Shown piece by piece: positions 1,041-58,014 of a stretch of 64,000 nucleotides of DNA. How positions within the stretch are numbered: the stretch's first letter is position 1; every line of letters begins with the position of its first letter. Where the stretch lies: NCBI RefSeq assembly GCF_964019755.1, contig NZ_OZ026469.1:186001-250000 (forward strand), given 5' to 3'. The position numbers and the translations under genes were made by a program. The notes beneath the pieces were generated by a model that saw only the letters and a list, made by a program, of their open reading frames with translations, ran no database searches and was not told the DNA's origin. Source of the DNA: Spiroplasma endosymbiont of Polydrusus cervinus. GTDB taxonomy: Bacteria > Bacillota_I > Bacilli_A > Mycoplasmatales > Mycoplasmataceae.

Positions 1041-2762
1041 GTGAAACAAAGAATGGGTTTTTTCAATACGGTTAAGTCTTTTATGGTAAAAGATAAACAA
1101 CATCAGCAACCACCAATGCAATCAGAGCAACGTTTTGGTGATAGTTTTAATGTTGATTTAATTCAACATAATAATTCTGGCTTTACAGAAAACCGCCCAT
1201 ATCCGCATAATATGCTGCCAAATCAATATTTTCGTCCAAATGAAGCATATAAACAAAACCAATTAAATAATATGGAAATGTTATATCAAAATAATAATAC
1301 AATTCATCCGTGCCGGATGAATTTAAGTAATCAATATAATTATTATGCTAATAATAATAAGCGACAATATCCACCAGAAGACCAGGATATTATGCATACA
1401 ACCTCACCTCAAATGCGATCAGGGTATGTTGAACCATATTATAATCATGTTGCTGCGCAAAATCATCCACAATCAATGCCAATGCAGCAACAAATTTTTC
1501 CACGGCGAATTCAACAATATCCGGCAAGTGCTAATTATGATCAATATTGGGCCGGACCACAAAAACCAGAGCGTTATGATAATCCGGAATTTGTTGGATA
1601 TCAAAATGACCATGAAGGGTATGAAAATAATGATAATTATTCACATCAGCATTGTCATCCTTATCAAGCTCGTGTTACACCGGCATATAATCAAATGCCT
1701 GTGAATGACCAATTTAATCGTTCGGAAGTAGGGTATGATTCGAAAGGATATTATCGTGGAGCAAATGCCGGCCAATATTTGGATGATAATCAAATGATGG
1801 GGAATAGGATGCTAGCGCCACCGTCATTTTATCAAAAGAATCATTTTATCCCCTCAACACAATTTGAAGCACCAGCGTTAACAAATAGTATTGAAAATAA
1901 ACGCTATGCTTATCAACCACAATTATCCGAGAAACAACGCCACCGTCATTTTAGTAAAGATTATGCTAATCGATTGATTCCGTTAGAAATTGGGCGGGAA
2001 ATTCGTTCGGAAAAAGTGCGCACTTTAATTATGATTATTGTTGGTTTCTTTGGCACAATGATAGCAAGTTTATTTATTGCTTTATATTTTATTTCGCATC
2101 AGCAAGAGTTAGAAGCAATTATGGGAATTAAAGCCAGATATATTCCCCATCCTTTTTTAACAATTACTTTTTTATTAATATCTTTAGGCTTATTGTTTGC
2201 TGGTATTTTTGATTTATCACGCGTTCGGATTGAAATAAATAGTTATCTTTCGAATTTAATACGGGGTAATCACACGATTCCTCATTTCTTAATTGATAAT
2301 TATAAAAAGATGACCGTTCGTAGCATTGTTTTAAATTGATTGGCTTTTCCAACTTATTTCTTTGGCGGTATTATTTTAGGAATTTTATATGGTTTCCAAC
2401 AACATTTCGGGGAAGAATTCCGCTTTGGTTTCTGGAGTTGAGGCATTGTTGATGATTTAACAGCCGCCATCACCATTACCATTATTATTTTAATTGTAAC
2501 GTTAGGGGTTCATATTGCGAATATTGTTTTAGCGAAAAAAAGAAAAGCAAATATTATTGGCTATTATGGTTATGAAATTGTTCATCCCGAAGAATTAGCA
2601 GCGTTAAAGAAAAAAACAAACCGGATTTGTTTAGTTGTCTTTATTATTTTCCTAATTATTTTAACCCTAGTAATTTCAATTCCATGATTAATTGCTCGTC
2701 GTCGTAAATGAAGTGGGAAGTCTTTCCTTGACAGTTGATTTAATGGTAATTGTATACTGTAA
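1041..2762 (+). CDS. large membrane protein with N/Q/Y/H/P-rich cytoplasmic-like N-terminus
   Basis: 573 residues when TGA is read as tryptophan. Residues 1 to about 300 are low-complexity and rich in Asn, Gln, Tyr, His, Met and Pro with almost no hydrophobic core, so likely disordered. The remaining part has about five hydrophobic segments, roughly residues 330-350, 372-392, 434-458, 473-497 and 530-552, ending in a basic tail. I do not recognise a family; a role in scaffolding or surface organisation is only a guess. The last residues CIL and the stop come from the TGTATACTGTAA end of an inserted IS30a element (from 2751), so the native C-terminus has been cut or replaced. The upstream spacer has only a weak Shine-Dalgarno (AGGGCAGGTG). 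Confidence 0.65.
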
Positions 2763-2949
2763 AACTAAATCATAAAAAGTTAATAAAATTATAACAAATT
2801 AAAAATAAAAAACAATAATCACAAAAAATATTAAATTAAAAATATTGTTTTTAATATTTATTTTTAAAATTATAAAATTAAACACAACAAAAAATAAATT
2901 TTACTAATCTTAACAAACACTAATTTAATTTAAAAAAATTTTTTTATAT

Positions 2950-5268: not shown

Positions 5269-5361
5269 CTTTCTATGAATTTTTTTCATAATAAAATGCA
5301 CCCCATTTCTAGTTTACACAAATGTTTTTATTTTTGTGTCTACTATATAGGGGGCATTCCA
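5269..5361 (-). repeat. IS3b left-end fragment
   Basis: Contains the start of IS3b orfA (minus strand, ATGAAAAAAATTCATAG) and the terminal GGGGGCATTCCA. The rest of the element is absent. It lies inside a right-end foldback of IS30a (5362-5457). Confidence 0.7.
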
Positions 5362-5457
5362 CAGTATTTTTAATTTAATATTTTTTGTGATTATTGTTTT
5401 TTATTTTTAATTTGTTATAATTCTATTAGCTTTTTATGATTTAGTTTTACAGTATAC
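5362..5457 (+). repeat. IS30a right end with outward -35/-10
   Basis: Ends in TTTTACAGTATACA at 5457. TTGTTT, 16 bases, TATAAT read rightward towards the gene remnant at 5458 and nadD. Confidence 0.7.
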
Positions 5458-5737
5458 ATTTTTCATCGTGATGATGATAAATTAGAATTATACCAAAATG
5501 GTAAACCACTAGAAGTAAAAAAGAATAACAAAGTAGGGAAAAAATAAAATTACAGTTACTGGTGATAAAGAATAAATTACGAGTTTAAAACAAAAATTAC
5601 CAAATAATTCTTTGAATAATATTGAGGAAAAAGATAATCTTACCATTACTTTATCTGTTAAATAATTTCAACAAGTTGTTCGTGATACAGTGGAAGATGT
5701 TTTAGTTGAGTTGGGAATTAAAAATAAAAATGAATAA
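5458..5737 (+). pseudogene. degraded gene remnant, not recognised
   Basis: Two or more frames together give HRDDDKLELYQNGKPLEV, then KITVTGDKEQITSLKQKL and FQQVVRDTVEDVLVELGIK before the final TAA. One base is missing in an A-run near 5540, and two in-frame TAA stand where CAA would fit. The start was removed by the IS30a end at 5457. I cannot name the family. Confidence 0.45.
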
Positions 5738-6886: not shown

Positions 6887-6939
6887 AGTGTAAATTGTAA
6901 TTGAAATTATGGTGGAAAAATTTATATGTTGCTTTTGAG

Positions 6940-8903: not shown

Positions 8904-9507
8904 TTATTTAATTGCTTTTATTTTATTTGGCAGTATTTTAGGAAGTGCTACCATTATTGTGCTTATTTTAGCTTTGTTCCAACACCAAAAAATTAAGCAT
9001 TTTAAACAAAAAAAACATGAATTACAAACGATGATTGATGATAATCAACCATTGTTAACTGATCCATTAAATGAAGTCCAAATTAAATATGAATTGCCAA
9101 AAGATGAAACATGTTATTATGAAGCAACAATTAGTGGCTATGAAATCACTAAGAAAAAAGAACTTAACCAAAATGCTTATTATTTAAGTCAACGAATGCA
9201 AAATAAATATTATGTTGAATACTTGGCGGGTTATTTAAACTTAACCACAAATAGGGGTGGGGAAACCCTGACCGGAACACTTTATGTAACAAACCAACGT
9301 TTAGTATGGCAAACTAAAGATCAAAATGTAATAATTTGATTAAAAGATGTCAGTTTTGCCTTACCAAGTGTTTTTAATCGGAATGGACTTTATCAACGTG
9401 GTTTTTTCATTAGTACCACTGAAAAAATTTATTGTTTTATAACAAATGATGTTAAAATATCAATAATAATTTTTAAAGCATGTGTATACTATAAAACTAA
9501 ATCATAA
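8893..9507 (+). CDS. membrane-anchored protein, paralogue of the previous gene, 3' end replaced
   Basis: 204 residues from ATG at 8893 (SD AAGGTGTG). One transmembrane helix at about residues 5-28, then a soluble domain with TGTLYVTNQRLVWQTKDQ, matching the neighbour. The final residues VYYKTKS and the TAA are encoded by the IS30a end that starts at 9482, so the true C-terminus is lost. Shared layout suggests duplication of one ancestral gene. Confidence 0.6.
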
Positions 9508-14624: not shown

Positions 14625-15542
14625 GTGAGTAAAAAAGTTATTTTAATTGTTGGACCAACAGGGAGTGGTAAGACTGACTTATCAATTAAGATTGCCCAAA
14701 AATTTCATGGGGGGGAGTGTGTTAATGTTGATGCAACCCAAATTTTTAATGGTTTAAATCTTGCCACCAATAAAATAACACCAACGGAACAAACGGGAAT
14801 TCCACATCATTTATTATCAACAGTTGATTTAAAAGATAATTATTCAATTAAGACTTATCAACAAGAGGGACGTAAAATATTAGAGAAATTGTGAGCTAAA
14901 AATAAGCTTCCGATTGTTGTCGGGGGCAGTGGTTTATATATTAATGCATTATTAAAAAACTATTGCTTTTCTGATCAGGGGCGTGATTTAGAATTGGTTA
15001 AAAAATATGAGCAAGTTTCTAATGATACTTTATGAGAAAAGTTAGCCACAATTGATCCACAAGCAAGTGCAAAAATTCATCCGAATAATCGCAAACGAGT
15101 TTGACGGGCATTAGAATATTATTTCCAAACGGGGACCTTAAAATCATCGAATGATCATCATCACAATGACTGGTATGTTGAGCCATATATTATTGGATTA
15201 TTACCCGATAAAATCGAACTTCACCAACGCTTACATGACCGGGTATTACAATTAATAGCGCGTGGTTTGTTTGCCGAAGTTACTGCAGCATATGAGTATT
15301 GTGACTATGATTTAACCAAGCAAAGTATGAAAATTATTGGTTGTCCGGAAATTGTTCGTTATTTAAACGGTGAACTTTCATATGAAGCAACATTAGATGC
15401 AATGGTACAAGCGAATAAGATTTATGCTAAAAAACAAGTAACATGGTTTAAACATCAATTAAAAAATGTTCATTGATATTCATTTCATTATGCACAATTT
15501 AATGATCTTTGCCAACAAATTATTCTTGATTGTATACTGTAA
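14625..15542 (+). CDS. miaA: tRNA dimethylallyltransferase
   Basis: 305 residues from GTG at 14625, preferred over TTG at 14619 because GAGG lies 9 bases upstream. MiaA adds a dimethylallyl group to A37 of tRNAs reading UNN codons. Seen: Walker A GPTGSGKT, the [15 protein letters not shown] substrate loop (usual DSMQVYRGMDIGTAK), [18 protein letters not shown], and NNRKRVWRALE. Native sequence ends about LCQQIIL; the last four residues DCIL and stop come from the foldback element at 15531, which provides TGTATACTGTAA. Loss of the final residues may be tolerated since catalytic parts are N-terminal. Confidence 0.9.
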
Positions 15543-15611
15543 ATACTAAATCATAAAAAGTTAACTATTGTTAATAGTTAACTTTTTATGATTTAGTATT
15601 TACAGTATACA
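15531..15611. repeat. IS30a foldback element, 81 bp
   Basis: A near-perfect palindrome from TGTATACTGTAAATAC to GTATTTACAGTATACA, with both ends of the TGTATACTG type but the short centre of the left-end family (AGTTAACTATTG TTAATAGTTAACT). It closes miaA. Confidence 0.85.
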
Positions 15612-20030: not shown

Positions 20031-20574
20031 ATTAACAATTTTAATGAAAATGATTAAACAAACTGGTATTAGTAAATTTAGTTGTATTTTAACCGATAGA
20101 GGAAAAGAATTTTATAGATGAAAAAGAATAGAAAAACATTTTAAAATAAGAGTTTATTTTTTGTGATCCTGGTAAACCTCGTCAGAAAGCATTAGTAGAA
20201 AGAATAAATAGAGATATAAGGCGTTGATTTGGGTTAAAATGAGCCATTAATTAATATTCGTAGTAGATTAAAATCTATTTTAGATATATTAAATACCAGA
20301 ATTAGACCTTGCTTGGAAAATTTTACATCAAGAAAATATTTTAAAAAAATTTTTTTAAATTAAATTAGTGTTTGTTAAGATTAGTAAAATTTATTTTTTG
20401 TTGTGTTTAATTTTATAATTTTAAAAATAAATATTAAGAACAATATTTTTAATTTAATATTTTTTGTGATTATTGTTTTTTATTTTTAATTTGTTATAAT
20501 GTTATTAACTTTTTATGATTTAGTTTTACATTATGCAAACTGTGGAAAATTAATAAAAATGACGAGGTGAAGAT

Positions 20575-26448: not shown

Positions 26449-26460
26449 ATTTTTTCTCCT

Positions 26461-26540
26461 TGTAAATTGTAAATATCAAATCATAAAAAGTTAACTATTA
26501 ATTTAGTTAACTTTTTATGATTTGATATTTACAATTTACA
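26461..26540. repeat. 80-bp IS30a left-end foldback element
   Basis: TGTAAATTGTAAATATC to GATATTTACAATTTACA, an almost perfect palindrome with centre TTAACTATTAATTTAGTTAA. It separates the phage tail genes from folD; flanked by CT on both sides. Confidence 0.88.
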
Positions 26541-26643
26541 CTCCCGAATATTTTACGCGCTCAAATAGCATTTAATTTTCTAACCCTTTCAGATACAATT
26601 ATTCATATAAAAGTATTTTAGCATAGAAAAGAGTAAAAATTTG

Positions 26644-32965: not shown

Positions 32966-33392
32966 AAATTGTAATGCTGCAAAAGCACAAAAAATACATG
33001 ATAAAAATAAAAAACAATGTCGTAAATATTCAATGTTAAATTCACAAGAATTAAGTCACTTTTCTAATGAATATAATAATTTTGGTCGTTCGCCACAAAA
33101 TATTATTACTTCGTATGAATTACAATATAATGTAAAATTTGGTGTATATTTTAAAAAAATGTATAAATATATTAAATTAGGTTATTTTAATTTAAAAAAA
33201 GAAATGCTATATTTTAAAAATAAAAAAAGAAAAACAAAAAATGGGGAACAAAATGATAATCGTGGAAAATTACTTAATATTAGAGATTATAAGCAATTTT
33301 TAAATGATTATGCAAATGATTTAAGTTTTAGTGGAATTTGAGAAATGGATACTCTTGATTGTGGTAATTTTCATTTGTTAGTTTTAGTAAAT
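32966..33392 (+). pseudogene. IS30a transposase middle fragment
   Basis: Open from NCNAAKAQKIHDKNKKQCRK through LSFSGIWEMDTLDCGNFHLL, which holds the first catalytic D (EMDTLD). Both sides are truncated, right side by the foldback at 33393. Confidence 0.75.
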
Positions 33393-33472
33393 TGTAAATT
33401 GTAAATACTAAATCATAAAAAGTTAACTATTAATTTAGTTAACTTTTTATGATTTAGTATTTACAATTTACA
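33393..33472. repeat. 80-bp IS30a left-end foldback element
   Basis: TGTAAATTGTAAATAC to GTATTTACAATTTACA palindrome, same family as 26461-26540. Confidence 0.88.
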
Positions 33473-33536
33473 AAGGAATAATTTTAATAAAAATACATTT
33501 TTATTGTGGAAAAATTTAAAAAAATAGAAAAATATA

Positions 33537-33564
33537 TTGACAATAAAATTAAAAGTAATATAAT
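33537..33564 (+). promoter_or_regulatory. strong orphan sigma-70-type promoter
   Basis: TTGACA, 16 bases, TATAAT. It points right into 90 bases without an ORF and then the 3' end of mreB (minus). About 120 bases around it are repeated near 60660-60830 (minus strand; -10 is TACAAT there). Confidence 0.6.
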
Positions 33565-33660: not shown

Positions 33661-33696
33661 ATAGAGAAACTATATTTTAAAATATATTTTCTCTAT
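33661..33696 (-). terminator. mreB terminator
   Basis: A 36-base palindrome, ATAGAGAAA...TTTCTCTAT with two mismatches, overlapping the stop codon and followed on minus by TTTTTAT. Confidence 0.7.
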
Positions 33697-34742
33697 GAAA
33701 TCTTGTATTCATTTGCATCAATTAATTGAATTCTTTCAATTACAGCACCTAAATTTTTTTCATATGTTTTTGCGCCATCAATTACACACATCAATGGATC
33801 ATTTGCAGCTTTTACTTTTAATTGGAAGATTAATTCAAAATATTTCACAATCCCACGAATTAAAGCTCCTCCCCCACAAATTGTAATTCCATTTCTAATA
33901 ACATCTCCAGCTAATTCTGGTGGTGTTTGTTCTAATACTTCAACGAGTAAGTCTGTAATTCTTGAGAATGGAGTTAATAAAACGTTTTTAACTTCTTCAG
34001 GTTTAATTAATACTTCACGTGGTAGGCCGGTAATAATATCACGGCCAAAAGCACGAACTGGTTTTTCATTAATTATTTTAACTAATGCTCCAATTTCTTT
34101 TTTAATTTGCTCAGCAGCTCTAATACCAACTAAGACGTTGTATTGAGCACGAATATATTTTTGAATTTCTTGATCTAAGTGTTTTCCAGCAACTTTAACT
34201 GATTTTGAAATTACAATATCACCTGCTGAAATAATTGCGATGTCAGTTGTTCCGCCACCAATATCAATTACTAAATTTCCTTGTGCTAAACCAATATTAA
34301 TTCCTGCTCCCAAGGCTGCTAGCTTAACTTCTTCTTCAACTAAAACATGACTTGCGCCCATATCTTTTGCAATAGCTTTTAAAGCACCACGTTCTAATTC
34401 GGTAACTCCACTTGGACATGCTAATATTACTAGTGAATTTTTTCAAATTCCTGATAATTTTAATCTACTAAAAATATGTTTTAATAAATCTTGTGCTGCC
34501 TCTATATCTGAGATAACGCCATCAACTAGCGGTGTTACCATTCTAATATGGTCGTGGGTTTTTCCAACCATTTTGTATGCTTCATTTCCTAAGGCAATTA
34601 ATGAGTTACTTAAAGTATCATAAGCCATCATAGAAGGTTCATTGTAAACGATTCCTTGGCCTGATACATATGCCACTGTATTAGCTGTACCTAGGTCTAA
34701 AGCCAAAAATGAGTAGTCTTTTCCAAATTTATAATTAGCCAT
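33693..34742 (-). CDS. mreB: MreB actin-like protein, catalytically canonical
   Basis: 349 residues. Bacterial actin; spiroplasmas have no wall and use several MreBs for helicity and swimming. Seen: phosphate 1 loop LALDLGTANTVAYV, phosphate 2 loop VIDIGGGTTDIAIIS, the catalytic-Glu helix LVEEEVKLAALGAG in which E aligns with the canonical EP site, and the adenosine motif CGGGALIRGI. SD GGAGGC precedes the start. It diverges from rnmV with a shared palindromic promoter. Which of the numbered Spiroplasma MreBs it is cannot be settled here. Confidence 0.93.
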
Positions 34743-34870: not shown

Positions 34871-35398
34871 ATGGCAGTATTTATTATTGTTGAAGGAAAA
34901 ACTGATACAGCAAAATTAAAAAGTATTTTTCCGGAAATTAAAACAATTGAAACTAGTGGTAGTGGAATCACAACTGAAAAATTAGCATTTATTAAACAAA
35001 TTAGTTTGAATAATAAAGTAATCATTTTTACTGATCCGGATTATCCTGGCCAAAAATTACGCCAAACTATTAGTGATTATTTGGATAACAATTGTCTGCA
35101 TGCTTTTATTAATAAAAATGATGCAATCAAAGGTAAAAAAATTGGCATTGCTGAAGCATCTCCAGTAGCAATTAAAAATAGTATTAATAATTTAATTAGT
35201 TTTACCAAGCAAGTAGATAATACCTTATGCTGAAATGATTATATTAATTTGGTTGATTCAAAAAGTAAACGCGATAAAATTATTAAATATTATAACTTAA
35301 TGCCAACTAATAATAAAACAACTTTTAAATGACTAAACTATATGAATATTACCAGCCAAGATTTAATTAATATTTTAGAGGAGAAATGTATACTGTAA
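34871..35398 (+). CDS. rnmV: ribonuclease M5 (5S rRNA maturation), C-terminus altered
   Basis: 175 residues, SD GGGGTGAAAGG. The Toprim fold is clear: IIVEGKTDTAKL with the catalytic Glu and IIFTDPDYPGQKLR with the DxD pair. RNase M5 trims 5S rRNA precursors. The family normally continues with an L18-binding C-terminal domain, present here as KSKRDKIIKYYNLMPTNNKT. The last residues CIL and the stop come from the 187-bp foldback starting at 35387, so some tail may be missing. Confidence 0.85.
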
Positions 35399-35573
35399 AA
35401 TTAAATCATAAAAAGTTAATAACATTATAACAAATTAAAAATAAAAAACAATAATCACAAAAATATTAAATTAAAAACGCTGTTTTTAATTTAATATTTT
35501 TGTGATTATTGTTTTTTATTTTTAATTTGTTATAATGTTATTAACTTTTTATGATTTAATTTTACAGTATACA
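35387..35573. repeat. 187-bp IS30a right-end foldback element (MITE)
   Basis: Two arms of about 88 bases, TGTATACTGTAAAATTAAAT... and its inverse, around the centre ACGCTGTTTT. The arms equal the non-coding right end of IS30a. No coding sequence. The right arm contains TTGTTT (35509-35514), 16 bases, TATAAT (35531-35536) pointing at the mreB at 35604; the left arm ends rnmV. Confidence 0.88.
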
Positions 35574-35603
35574 GGCAATAAAACGAAAGGAGACATTTTA
35601 AAG

Positions 35604-36662
35604 ATGGCAATATCAGACGTATTAAAAAATACATTTAACATTTCACCAAAAGCACCGCGTAAATTTATTGCGATTGACTTAGGTACCACTAATTCAATTG
35701 CTTATGTTGCGGGGAGAGGCATCATTTTTAATGAAGCATCAGTAATGGCATTTGAAATCGGAACTAATAAACTAATAGCATTGGGGGATGATGCTAAAAA
35801 GTTAATTGGAAAAACCCACGATAAAATTGAAATTTATTCACCATTACGAAATGGTGCAGTTACAGATTTAACTATTGCAGAAGAATTTATTGAACAAATA
35901 GGAAAAAAAGCAAAGGTAACTGAGTTATGAAAAAATGCTATTGTTTTAATTTCATGCCCCAAAATTGTTACAGACTTAGAAAAACAAGCAATAATTAAAA
36001 TGTGTAAAAATATTGGTGCTGACTTTGTAAAAATTGAAGAAGATTCATTAATGGCAGCCTTGGGAGCAGGCGAAAATATTTTTGCACCAAAAGGAACTTT
36101 TATTTTAGATATTGGTGGTGGCAAAACAAGTTGTGCCATTATCTCTGCTGGTGGAATAGTTGAAAGTAAATCAATTAAAACAGCCGGAAATTATATTGAT
36201 GAAGAAATCCTAAAATATATTCGTGCAAAACACACCATCTCAATTGGTATCGTAACCGCTGAACAAATTAAAAAACAAATTGGTTCGTTATACAAAACAA
36301 AAGAAAATAAAAAAATGATTATTTTTGGCCGTGATGTTGTAACAGGAATGCCAAAAGAAACCGAGATTTTAGACTCAGAAATTAGAAAATTATTAATAAG
36401 CATTTTTTCATCAATTACGCAATTAATAACAGAAGTTTTAGAAAAAACTCCTGCTGAATTAGCTGGGGATGCTGTTGCTAACGGTATTTTAGTTACTGGC
36501 GGATGTTCCCAAATTGCTGGAATGAAAGAATTCTTATCCGAATATTTCCAAATTCCTGTTCAAATAGCTAAAAATGCTAACACATCTGTTATTGACGGAT
36601 GTATAGCCTATGAGAAAAAAATTAGAACTGAATTAATTGAAGAAAATAAAAAAAATAGATAA
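35604..36662 (+). CDS. mreB: MreB paralogue with substituted catalytic residues
   Basis: 352 residues from ATG at 35604 (SD AAAGGAG). FIAIDLGTTNSIAYVAGRG is phosphate loop 1. Phosphate loop 2 reads DIGGGKTSCAIISAG, with Lys where T is usual, and the catalytic helix reads IEEDSLMAALGAG, where Asp aligns with the ATP-hydrolysing Glu. Comparable changes are recalled for one or two Spiroplasma MreB classes with low ATPase, so this is likely an MreB3- or MreB1-like filament former. Transcription may come from the foldback immediately upstream; a terminator overlaps the stop. Confidence 0.88.
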
Positions 36663-47393: not shown

Positions 47394-47765
47394 TTAAATA
47401 ATTTTAATGAAAATGATTAAACAACTTGGTATTAGTAAATTTAGTTGTATTTTAACCGATAGAGGAAAAGAATTTTATAGATGAAAAACAATAGAAAAAC
47501 ACTTTAAAATAAGAGTTTATTTTTGTGATTCTGGTAAACTTCGCCAGAAAGCATTAGTAGAAAGAATAAATAGAGATATAAGGCGTTGATTGGGTCAAAA
47601 TAAGCCATTAATTAATATTCGTAGTAGATTAAAATCTATTTTAGATATATTAAATACCACAATTAGACCTTGCTTGGAAAATTTTACATCAAGACAATAT
47701 TTTAAAAAAATTTTTTTTAAATTAAATTAGTGTTTGTTAAGATTAGTAAAATTTATTTTTTGTTG

Positions 47766-47845
47766 TGTAAATTGTAAATACCAAATCATAAAAAGTTAAC
47801 TAAATTAATAGTTAACTTTTTATGATTTGGTATTTACAATTTACA
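47766..47845. repeat. 80-bp IS30a left-end foldback element
   Basis: TGTAAATTGTAAATACC to GGTATTTACAATTTACA; it truncates an IS30a copy and lies 30 bases before the helicase gene. Confidence 0.88.
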
Positions 47846-47875
47846 ATGTTATAATTTTGATGGTAAGGGGGTTAA

Positions 47876-49264: not shown

Positions 49265-49295
49265 GTGTAAATTGTAGCAAATTAAAAATAAAAAT

Positions 49296-49375
49296 TGTAA
49301 ATTGTAAATACCAAATCATAAAAAGTTAACTATTAATTTAGTTAACTTTTTATGATTTGGTATTTACAATTTACA
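49296..49375. repeat. 80-bp IS30a left-end foldback element
   Basis: Same palindrome as 47766-47845, flanked by AT on both sides; it truncates the phage-like gene that follows. Confidence 0.88.
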
Positions 49376-49377
49376 AT

Positions 49378-50407: not shown

Positions 50408-50472
50408 ATGTTTTTTATTTTTAATTTGTTATAATTTTATTAACTTTTTATGATTTAGTTTTACAGTATACA
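50408..50472 (+). repeat. IS30a right end
   Basis: Ends TTTTACAGTATACA at 50472, with outward TATAAT; it has removed the 5' two-thirds of yqeG. Confidence 0.75.
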
Positions 50473-54656: not shown

Positions 54657-55630
54657 GTGAAAAAATATGAAAGATTAGATTTTAATGAAAGAGTAAATTT
54701 GGAAAAATTAAAAGATAATGAATTATTTAAAAAGAAAAATGAAACAATTAATATTCGAAAAATTGCTAAGCAAATGAATAGAGATTATAGAACTATTTGG
54801 CAAGAGTTAAATATGTTTGATAATATTAATGATTATAATGCTGCAAAAGCACAAAAAATACATGATAAAAATAAAAAACAATGTCGTAAATATTAAATGT
54901 TAAATTCACAAGAATTAAGTCACTTTTCTAATGAATATAATAATTTTGGTCGTTCGCCACAAAATATTATTACTTCGTATGAATTACAATATAATGTAAA
55001 ATTTGGTGTATATTTTAAAAAAATGTATAAATATATTAAATTAGGTTATTTTAATTTAAAAAAAGAAATGCTATATTTTAAAAATAAAAAAATGGGGAAC
55101 AAAATGATAATCGTAGAAAATTACTTAATATTAGAGATTATAAGCAATTTTAAAATGATTATGGAAATGATTTAAGTTTTAGTGGAATTTGAGAAATGGA
55201 TACTCTTGATTGTGGTAATTTTTATTTGTTAGTTTTAGTAAATCGTAAATCAAAAATACTTTTTTATTATATTTTATTTAGTAAAAAGGCAAGTATTGTA
55301 TTAACAATTTTAATGAAAATGATTAAACAAATTGGTATTAGTAAATTTAGTTGTATTTTAACCGATAGAGGAAAAGAATTTTATAGATGAAAAACAATAG
55401 AAAAACACTTTAAAATAAGAGTTTATTTTTGTGATCCTGGTAAACTTCGTCAGAAAGCATTAGTAGAAAGAATAAATAGAGATATAAGGCGTTGATTGGC
55501 TCAAAATGAGCCATTAATTAATATTCGTAGTAGATTAAAATCTATTTTAGATATATTAAATACCACAATTAGACCTTGCTTGGAAAATTTTACATCAAGA
55601 AAATATTTTAAAAAAATTTTTTTAAATTAA
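54657..55630 (+). pseudogene. IS30a transposase, almost complete but broken
   Basis: GTG start. TCA-to-TAA after KKQCRKY (54894) and a 17-base loss near 55091 break the frame. Catalytic parts MDTLDCGNF, CILTDRGKEFYRW and ALVERINRDIRRW are all visible, the DDE core of IS30 enzymes. Confidence 0.8.
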
Positions 55631-55815
55631 ATTAGTATTTGTTAAGATTAGTAAAATTTATTTTTTGTTGTATTTAATTTTATAATTTTAAAAATAAATA
55701 TTAAAAACAATATTTTTAATTTAATATTTTTTGTGATTATTGTTTTTTATTTTTAATTTGTTATAATTTTATTAGCTTTTTATGATTTAGTTTTACAGTA
55801 TACAAAGGGATAAAT

Positions 55816-57798: not shown

Positions 57799-58014
57799 TG
57801 CATACTGTAAAACTAAATCATAAAAAGTTAATAAAATTATAACAAATTAAAAATAAAAAACAATAATCCAATGGAATGCCCCCTATATAGTAGACACAAA
57901 AATAAAAACATTTGTGTAAACTAGAAATGGGGTGCATTCCATTGGATTATTGTTTTTTATTTTTAATTTGTTATAATTTTATTAACTTTTTATGATTTAG
58001 TTTTACAGTATGCA
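57799..58014. repeat. IS30a right-end foldback with IS3b mini-element inside
   Basis: Arms start TGCATACTG and end CAGTATGCA, both carrying the same T-to-C change, so the palindrome stays perfect. Its centre is replaced by a 70-bp IS3b mini-element (57872-57941). The right arm offers the outward promoter for asnS. Confidence 0.85.
57872..57941. mobile_element. 70-bp IS3b-derived miniature element
   Basis: TGGAATGCCCCCTATATAG to AATGGGGTGCATTCCA; both ends are IS3b termini, with only the left-end leader between. Confidence 0.7.

Follow-up and report, generated by a model that had tools for sequence, protein, structure and literature searches.

The right end (RE) of an abundant IS30-like element very likely acts as an outward promoter in this Spiroplasma chromosome, driving the genes behind it in place of their native promoters or operon links. 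Most likely, as judged from the sequences compared here, the RE took over from native promoters that were lost after element-driven rearrangement, and the element is probably the new on-switch of dozens of genes. We observed the end sequences and their numbers, a bias in their orientation, and a loss of native upstream sequence in the genes compared with relatives. We infer that RNA polymerase uses the RE promoters; selection would have kept motif-bearing ends ahead of gene starts.

The palindrome between rnmV and mreB2

The chromosome is a single contig of 1,120,781 bases (genetic code 4), of which 635,852 bases were read. MreB identity was 94% to S. phoeniceum and 93% to S. poulsonii. Within the window (the whole stretch of DNA analysed, 64,000 nucleotides), the locus around the mreB paralogue mreB2 contains the following features.

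33389-33473, no strand: palindrome of left-end sequence (TGTAAATTGTAAATAC...), close to the second border of the inverted rnmV-mreB1 block
33693-34742, minus strand: mreB1, inverted together with rnmV relative to nine relatives
34871-35398, plus strand: rnmV (ribonuclease M5), its stop codon TAA (35396-35398) supplied by the palindrome
35387-35573, no strand: near-perfect 187-bp palindrome, two IS30-like right ends head to head without an IS body
35424-35451, minus strand: mirror outward promoter of the left arm, pointing back into the 3' end of rnmV
35509-35536, plus strand: outward promoter of the right arm, TTGTTT, 16 nt, TATAAT preceded by TGn
35604-36662, plus strand: mreB2, 30 bp behind the right arm, with its own SD kept and its native promoter region lost

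The sequence-only reading had placed TTGTTT-16-TATAAT at 35509-35536. We found the motif exactly as claimed, on the plus strand, with TG one base ahead of the TATAAT hexamer. The TTGTTT -35 is weak and matches the consensus TTGACA at 3/6 positions. Because of this -35, a generic sigma-70 scan of 35200-35700 missed the promoter, while it listed nine other sites (4.9 in shuffles). The mapped promoters of S. melliferum are described in PMC5138195 as having -10 TAWAAT, EXT TRTG and -35 TTGACA, with starts at G or A, mostly after a 6-nt gap. Compared with these rules, the RE fits fully in the -10 and in the start rule, at 3/4 positions in EXT (TTTG) and at 3/6 in the -35. The start rule predicts A35543, after a 6-nt gap, as the candidate start of the right-arm promoter. 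The terminus holds a -10 and a -35 at workable spacing and reading out, as a complete outward IS promoter does. Both arms of the palindrome bear the promoter, which gives it two outward directions.

We observed that the palindrome marks a rearrangement. The rnmV-mreB1 block is inverted here compared to nine relatives (L032-L040, those whose stretch covers the whole block), in which mreB1 and mreB2 are co-directional; four further stretches (L041-L044) showed the same inversion in the mreB1 part. Homology to mreB2 begins at 35575, two bases past the palindrome, in 8/9 relatives, and rnmV homology stops at 35386-35387. In the relatives rnmV overlaps ksgA, which lies ~104 kb from rnmV here, 9 bp behind an RE. 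Most of the nine relatives have a hairpin with a T run after mreB1. Upstream of mreB2 they carry TTGCAA (TTGAAA in S. phoeniceum), 16-18 nt and TATAAT, which by eye is kept in all except L039. When the S. phoeniceum mreB2 upstream region was searched against the present genome, the matches (53 bases at 77%, E 3e-4; 28 bases at 89%) were not convincing, and mreB2 therefore appears to have lost this region. This strengthens the earlier claim that no other promoter is visible for mreB.

A single hairpin of 92 pairs (-111.5 kcal/mol) is predicted for the palindrome. Although this hairpin is very stable, a scan of 35200-35700 found no intrinsic terminator (a G+C-rich stem followed by a T run), and a classical terminator was rejected as the role of the palindrome. 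A phage origin was also rejected, as a phage collection gave no match.

The element itself was recognized from an ORF at 55196-55630, ahead of a right end, which matched Pfam rve (39.7 bits) in keeping with an IS30-type DDE transposase. Its DNA was 69.8% identical over 139 bases (E 2e-7) to the gene annotated as IS30 family (Tra8) in Spiroplasma phage R8A2B. The copies of the element that we saw were broken. Terminal inverted repeats are present and are alike, not identical: the left end is TGTAAATTGTAAATACCAAATCATAAAAAGTTAA and the right end, as its reverse complement, TGTATACTGTAAAACTAAATCATAAAAAGTTAA. A 205-bp piece of the element tail gave 64 matches in the DNA read, of which 56 reach the tail end and 8 are partial. 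Among the 56 complete copies, 47 were scored as running into this RE arm, 7 begin the arm in the printed stretch and 2 are interrupted by another IS. This bears out the earlier label "IS30a right end" as far as sequence goes, and it rules out a palindrome unrelated to this IS, an idea raised by the other ISs in some centres. As a description of the copy at these coordinates the label falls short, since 35387-35573 is a bodiless RE/RE palindrome that points two ways.

IS30-family elements produce a target duplication of 2-3 bp. By eye, none was evident in either of two sets of palindromes (12 in one, 30 in the other); the tested ones lie at rearrangement joints, with flanks from different places. 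The palindromes are short and non-coding like a MITE, but assignment to that class was rejected, as no target duplication was seen and each is a perfect palindrome of one end. For the copies tested, simple MITE insertion was likewise rejected: in four relatives, the sequences flanking five other palindromes map to separate places, and rnmV-mreB1 is inverted compared to the nine.

We also noted that copies of the palindrome differ by base changes mirrored in both arms, each copy staying perfect. This points to arm-to-arm copying, possibly by hairpin-templated repair or gene conversion. Some RE palindromes hold other ISs (ends TGGAATGCCCCC... and TAGACTGCACCC...) or scraps in their centres (window 57799-58014; genome 26263-26479 and 166656-168072), as if the centre were a preferred target.

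The RE supplies stop codons in all three inward frames, and genome-wide 17/85 genes reading toward an end stop inside it. In the window, stop codons of upstream genes lie within the right end at 9507, 22059, 27510 and 35398. The right end would in effect be a compact gene boundary.

Right ends and the genes behind them

The genome contains 212 copies of the outer 31 bp of the RE, split 103:109 between the two strands, and a reversed control pattern gave no match. Our end set comprised the 205 of these 212 that were read with flanks. TTGTTT-N14..18-TATAAT was present in 133/205 ends and the extended -10, TGTTATAAT, in 157/205. Among the 133 motif-bearing ends, 130 have a -10 that stops 37 bp short of the outer edge, and 129 have an A at the seventh position past the -10. 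In the 635,852 bases read, the ends hold 165/277 TGnTATAAT sites and 133/157 TTGTTT-N14..18-TATAAT sites, the latter share also reflecting copy number. The -10 was intact in 42/42 full arms facing a near gene start compared to 79/81 others; because the arms are recent copies, this conservation says little on selection. Outside the ends, base preference was limited to a weak A+T bias.

In the window, TTGTTT-N14..20-TATAAT occurred at 14 sites (shuffles: mean 2.1, largest 8), 11 of which are copies of one 28-mer, that of 35509-35536. Besides the mreB2 locus, the following ends were examined.

2751-2873, minus strand: right end, promoter 2815-2788, facing the 3' end of a gene that stops at 2762
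5361-5458, plus strand: right end, promoter 5394-5421, with nadD-yqeK 330 bp on
20440-20537, plus strand: right end, promoter 20473-20500, 37 bp ahead of the ATG of an amino-acid permease (20575)
55707-55804, plus strand: right end, promoter 55740-55767, 11 bp ahead of a lipoprotein gene (55816)
57799-58014, no strand: 216-bp RE palindrome with a remnant of another IS in its centre, promoter 57950-57977, asnS (58026) 11 bp on

Ends had been said to lie directly before five genes. This held for the permease (37 bp), mreB (30 bp), the lipoprotein (11 bp) and asnS (11 bp); the yqeG fragment could not be pinned to any end. The end at 5458 is followed by 0.33 kb without a long open frame before nadD-yqeK, and the end at 50472, which lies 221 bp ahead of yqeH, has lost its -35.

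Two further features of the window were noted. TTGACA-16-TATAAT at 33537-33564 (+) reads toward the 3' end of mreB1 and is possibly the stranded native promoter of a lost neighbour. A second family of short perfect palindromes derives from the left end (15530-15611, 26457-26541, 33389-33473, 47762-47846 and 49292-49376). The palindromes of left-end sequence in the window measure 78-85 bp and look like left-end/left-end versions; 47762-47846 adjoins the edge of a synteny block.

Genes, and with them the gene starts, were predicted with a simple code-4 ORF caller, and each end was assigned the nearest gene beyond it (for 4/205 ends the stretch contained none). With a gene within 50 bp, motif-bearing ends had 48 genes reading away and 22 reading toward them, compared to 5 and 21 for motif-less ends (OR 9.2, P = 2e-5). 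The bias was also observed within 100 bp (57/24 with the motif, 9/29 without; P = 3e-6) and at any distance (87/43 and 29/42; P = 6e-4). Background over all intergenic sides was 385 away and 367 toward. After removal of near-identical flanks (201 to 195 ends), the 50-bp counts were 48/22 and 5/18 (P = 1.7e-4). Single arms alone (34/17 with the motif, 4/12 without; P = 0.004) and palindromes alone (14/5 and 1/6; P = 0.02) gave the same direction at 50 bp. The motif in an end does not imply a client gene, because 22 motif-bearing ends within 50 bp face the 3' end of a gene.

Eighteen palindromes carry the motif in each arm and have two known neighbours; 11 of them lie between divergent genes, 5 are mixed and 2 convergent. 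Divergent genes flank 70 of the 337 intergenic gaps in the baseline, which covers all gaps >60 bp, palindromes included (P = 2e-4). The sharpest divergent case is at 436412-436588 of the genome, where a tlyA-like and a DJ-1-like gene lie 19 and 30 bp outside the palindrome.

The 48 genes that start within 50 bp behind motif-bearing ends include asnS, dnaG, ffh, tpiA, pyrH, plsX and map. Their gaps to the ends are 9-46 bp, which would leave room for a ribosome-binding site and hardly for another promoter. Model scans covered 33 of the 48: 20 were run against NCBIfam and 10 against Pfam, in addition to the mreB2, permease and lipoprotein genes from the window. A first batch of models matched ffh (partial), dnaG, triose-phosphate isomerase, methionyl aminopeptidase, pyrH, plsX, asnS, transketolase, a PlsY-like protein and an AcpS-like protein. 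The second batch gave RNase Y, ksgA, L-lactate dehydrogenase, an RNase J, rlmN, mnmA, deoD, greA, a phosphohexomutase-like protein and a TlyA-like protein. Two of the ten genes scanned with Pfam had no match, nor did the lipoprotein. asnS is single-copy; its other matches were 25-30% identical. Core genes of this kind are normally essential in Mollicutes.

Joints, native promoters and competing explanations

We compared three stretches of the window with one relative (G012); these stretches were used since the control intergenic gaps that had been drawn fell in repeat-rich regions and were discarded. An edge of a conserved block coincided with 11/14 ends, 10 of them within 3 bp and one with a 25-bp overlap. 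The other 3/14 ends had no match outside, and 0/14 lay inside a block. The joint at ~6889-6898 was without an element end.

Seventeen genes were each compared with two relatives: dnaG, tpiA, map, pyrH, plsX, plsY, acpS, tkt, ksgA, ldh, ffh, rlmN, rny, tlyA, DJ-1, asnS and mreB2. They were picked before the joint statistics, ten by gene name, five via whole palindromes and two from the window. Ten palindrome flanks were searched, of which five gave compared genes; 281872-L, 357920-L, 358108-R, 138429-R and 458038-L were omitted (gene end, gap >50 bp, or upstream not examined). The printed upstream stretch of the relatives held no copy of the element end for any of the genes (17/17).

In the relatives, 4/17 genes (dnaG, ksgA, tlyA and asnS) lie behind an ORF of the same sense whose end falls at -9 to +14 bp relative to the joint; these four have therefore lost an operon partner. 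For 7/17 (tpiA, pyrH, plsX, plsY, ldh, rlmN and DJ-1), the relatives have an exact TATAAT whose end is no more than 5 bp away from the joint. When joints were placed at random using the observed gap sizes, at least seven such cases arose in 0.13% of 20,000 trials (expected 2-3, P = 0.001). TATAAT lies further upstream in relatives for ffh, rny and mreB2, and map, acpS and tkt have only imperfect candidates there. At ldh, a remnant ATAAT is left just outside the end. In most cases the native promoter or operon link has therefore been cut. The element probably prefers -10-like targets.

These data suggest the following course of events. Element copies and bare right ends lie at the joints of a heavily rearranged chromosome, and at many joints an end would have landed between a native promoter, or an operon partner, and the ribosome-binding site. 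Transcription would then start within the element end, from the extended -10 and weak TTGTTT -35, ~31 nt inside the outer edge, with a leader made of ~31 nt of the end plus the gap. At 35387-35573, which parts rnmV from mreB2, the right arm would drive mreB2, a gene that no longer has its native promoter region, and transcription from the left arm would run antisense into rnmV. The earlier proposal of an outward promoter that serves the neighbours is well supported by its anatomy, the genome-wide statistics and the relatives; the -35 is poor, and transcription from the promoter is a prediction.

Read-through from genes or IS bodies further back could also transcribe the client genes, leaving the motif in the ends idle, and we consider this very unlikely. 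It is possible at mreB2, with which rnmV is co-directional, and the next ORF behind the 48 ends is same-sense in 23 cases, some of these being IS remnants. However, it is opposite in 15 (the stretch ended in the other 10), and the 11 palindromes between divergent genes also speak against read-through, as does the palindrome's 92-pair RNA hairpin, which a read-through transcript would contain. Motif-bearing ends, moreover, face gene starts far more often than motif-less ends. We give equally little credence to an accident of a very A+T-rich genome, in which case the end would do no more than bind transposase. A+T-rich DNA often contains TATAAT, the -35 matches at half its positions, and the generic scan omits the site, but the concentration of full motifs in the ends, even if copy number contributes to it, argues otherwise, and chance leaves both the gene-start bias and the missing native promoters unexplained.

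A third explanation concerns what the promoter is for, and we regard its chances as even: the promoter may serve the element, in that circularization would bring right end and left end together and the promoter would then drive the transposase across their junction, and effects on neighbours would be by-products. Junction promoters of IS911 are extended to IS30 and other families in a review (PMC9330008). The motif is in the RE of nearly all copies, also those that face no gene start, and by eye no strong promoter points inward from the left end ahead of where the transposase presumably starts. Such a function would account for the existence of the promoter; it would leave unexplained why the ends are biased in orientation and why native promoters were removed from the genes behind them. 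It is compatible with a promoter that drives the neighbouring genes.

A more far-reaching proposal is tentative, and we place it somewhat below even: a single promoter from an element end would be a main promoter of housekeeping genes, expressing dozens of unrelated genes, with the element tending to join at native -10 hexamers and operon seams, swapping in its own promoter, and the bare RE palindromes acting as two-way modules between divergent genes. If true, a selfish element would have taken over basal transcription of many core genes (among them asnS, ffh, dnaG, tpiA, pyrH and map) in one lineage whose relatives keep native promoters. Genome survival under massive operon breakage would become testable, in that an operon-cutting element brings a replacement promoter. 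The set of genes behind near-identical promoters would be useful for asking which regulation Mollicutes can do without.

Comparison with known systems

Among the papers listed by literature searches on Spiroplasma combined with outward promoters, the mreB operon, IS30 rearrangement or palindromes, none dealt with this subject. Nor did the papers listed describe a genome in which dozens of core genes have one IS end as their sole plausible promoter and relatives show the loss. MITEs are likewise short and non-coding, with inverted terminal repeats and many copies; in contrast, the copies here are perfect one-end palindromes, without a target duplication seen, and the tested ones lie at rearrangement joints. 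IS481 of Bordetella pertussis has hundreds of copies in a rearranged genome, with outward transcription. It belongs to a different IS family from the element here, and we know of no bare one-end palindromes in it.

Complete outward promoters are reviewed for ISEcp1, ISAba1, ISAba125, IS1237, IS481 and others (PMC9330008). ISAba125 is an IS30-family element, and its promoter is among those compared in that review. As in the RE, a complete -35/-10 pair lies in the terminus and reads into the neighbour, and IS1237 fires from both ends. The cases described there are single activations, mostly of resistance genes. Here, in contrast, 48 genes lie within 50 bp of motif-bearing ends in one chromosome, and the clients include housekeeping genes stripped of their own promoter or operon partner. 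Work on mobile promoters and IS-gene couples (PMC9208149) describes many ISs <100 bp from gene starts that are argued to be promoters, also in the divergent <-IS-> arrangement. That work surveys many genomes, whereas our comparison with relatives reveals the lost native promoter for individual genes. Outward promoters in ISs, like IS-gene couples, are well known; what is unusual here is the scale, the presence of core genes among the clients, and palindromes that point both ways.
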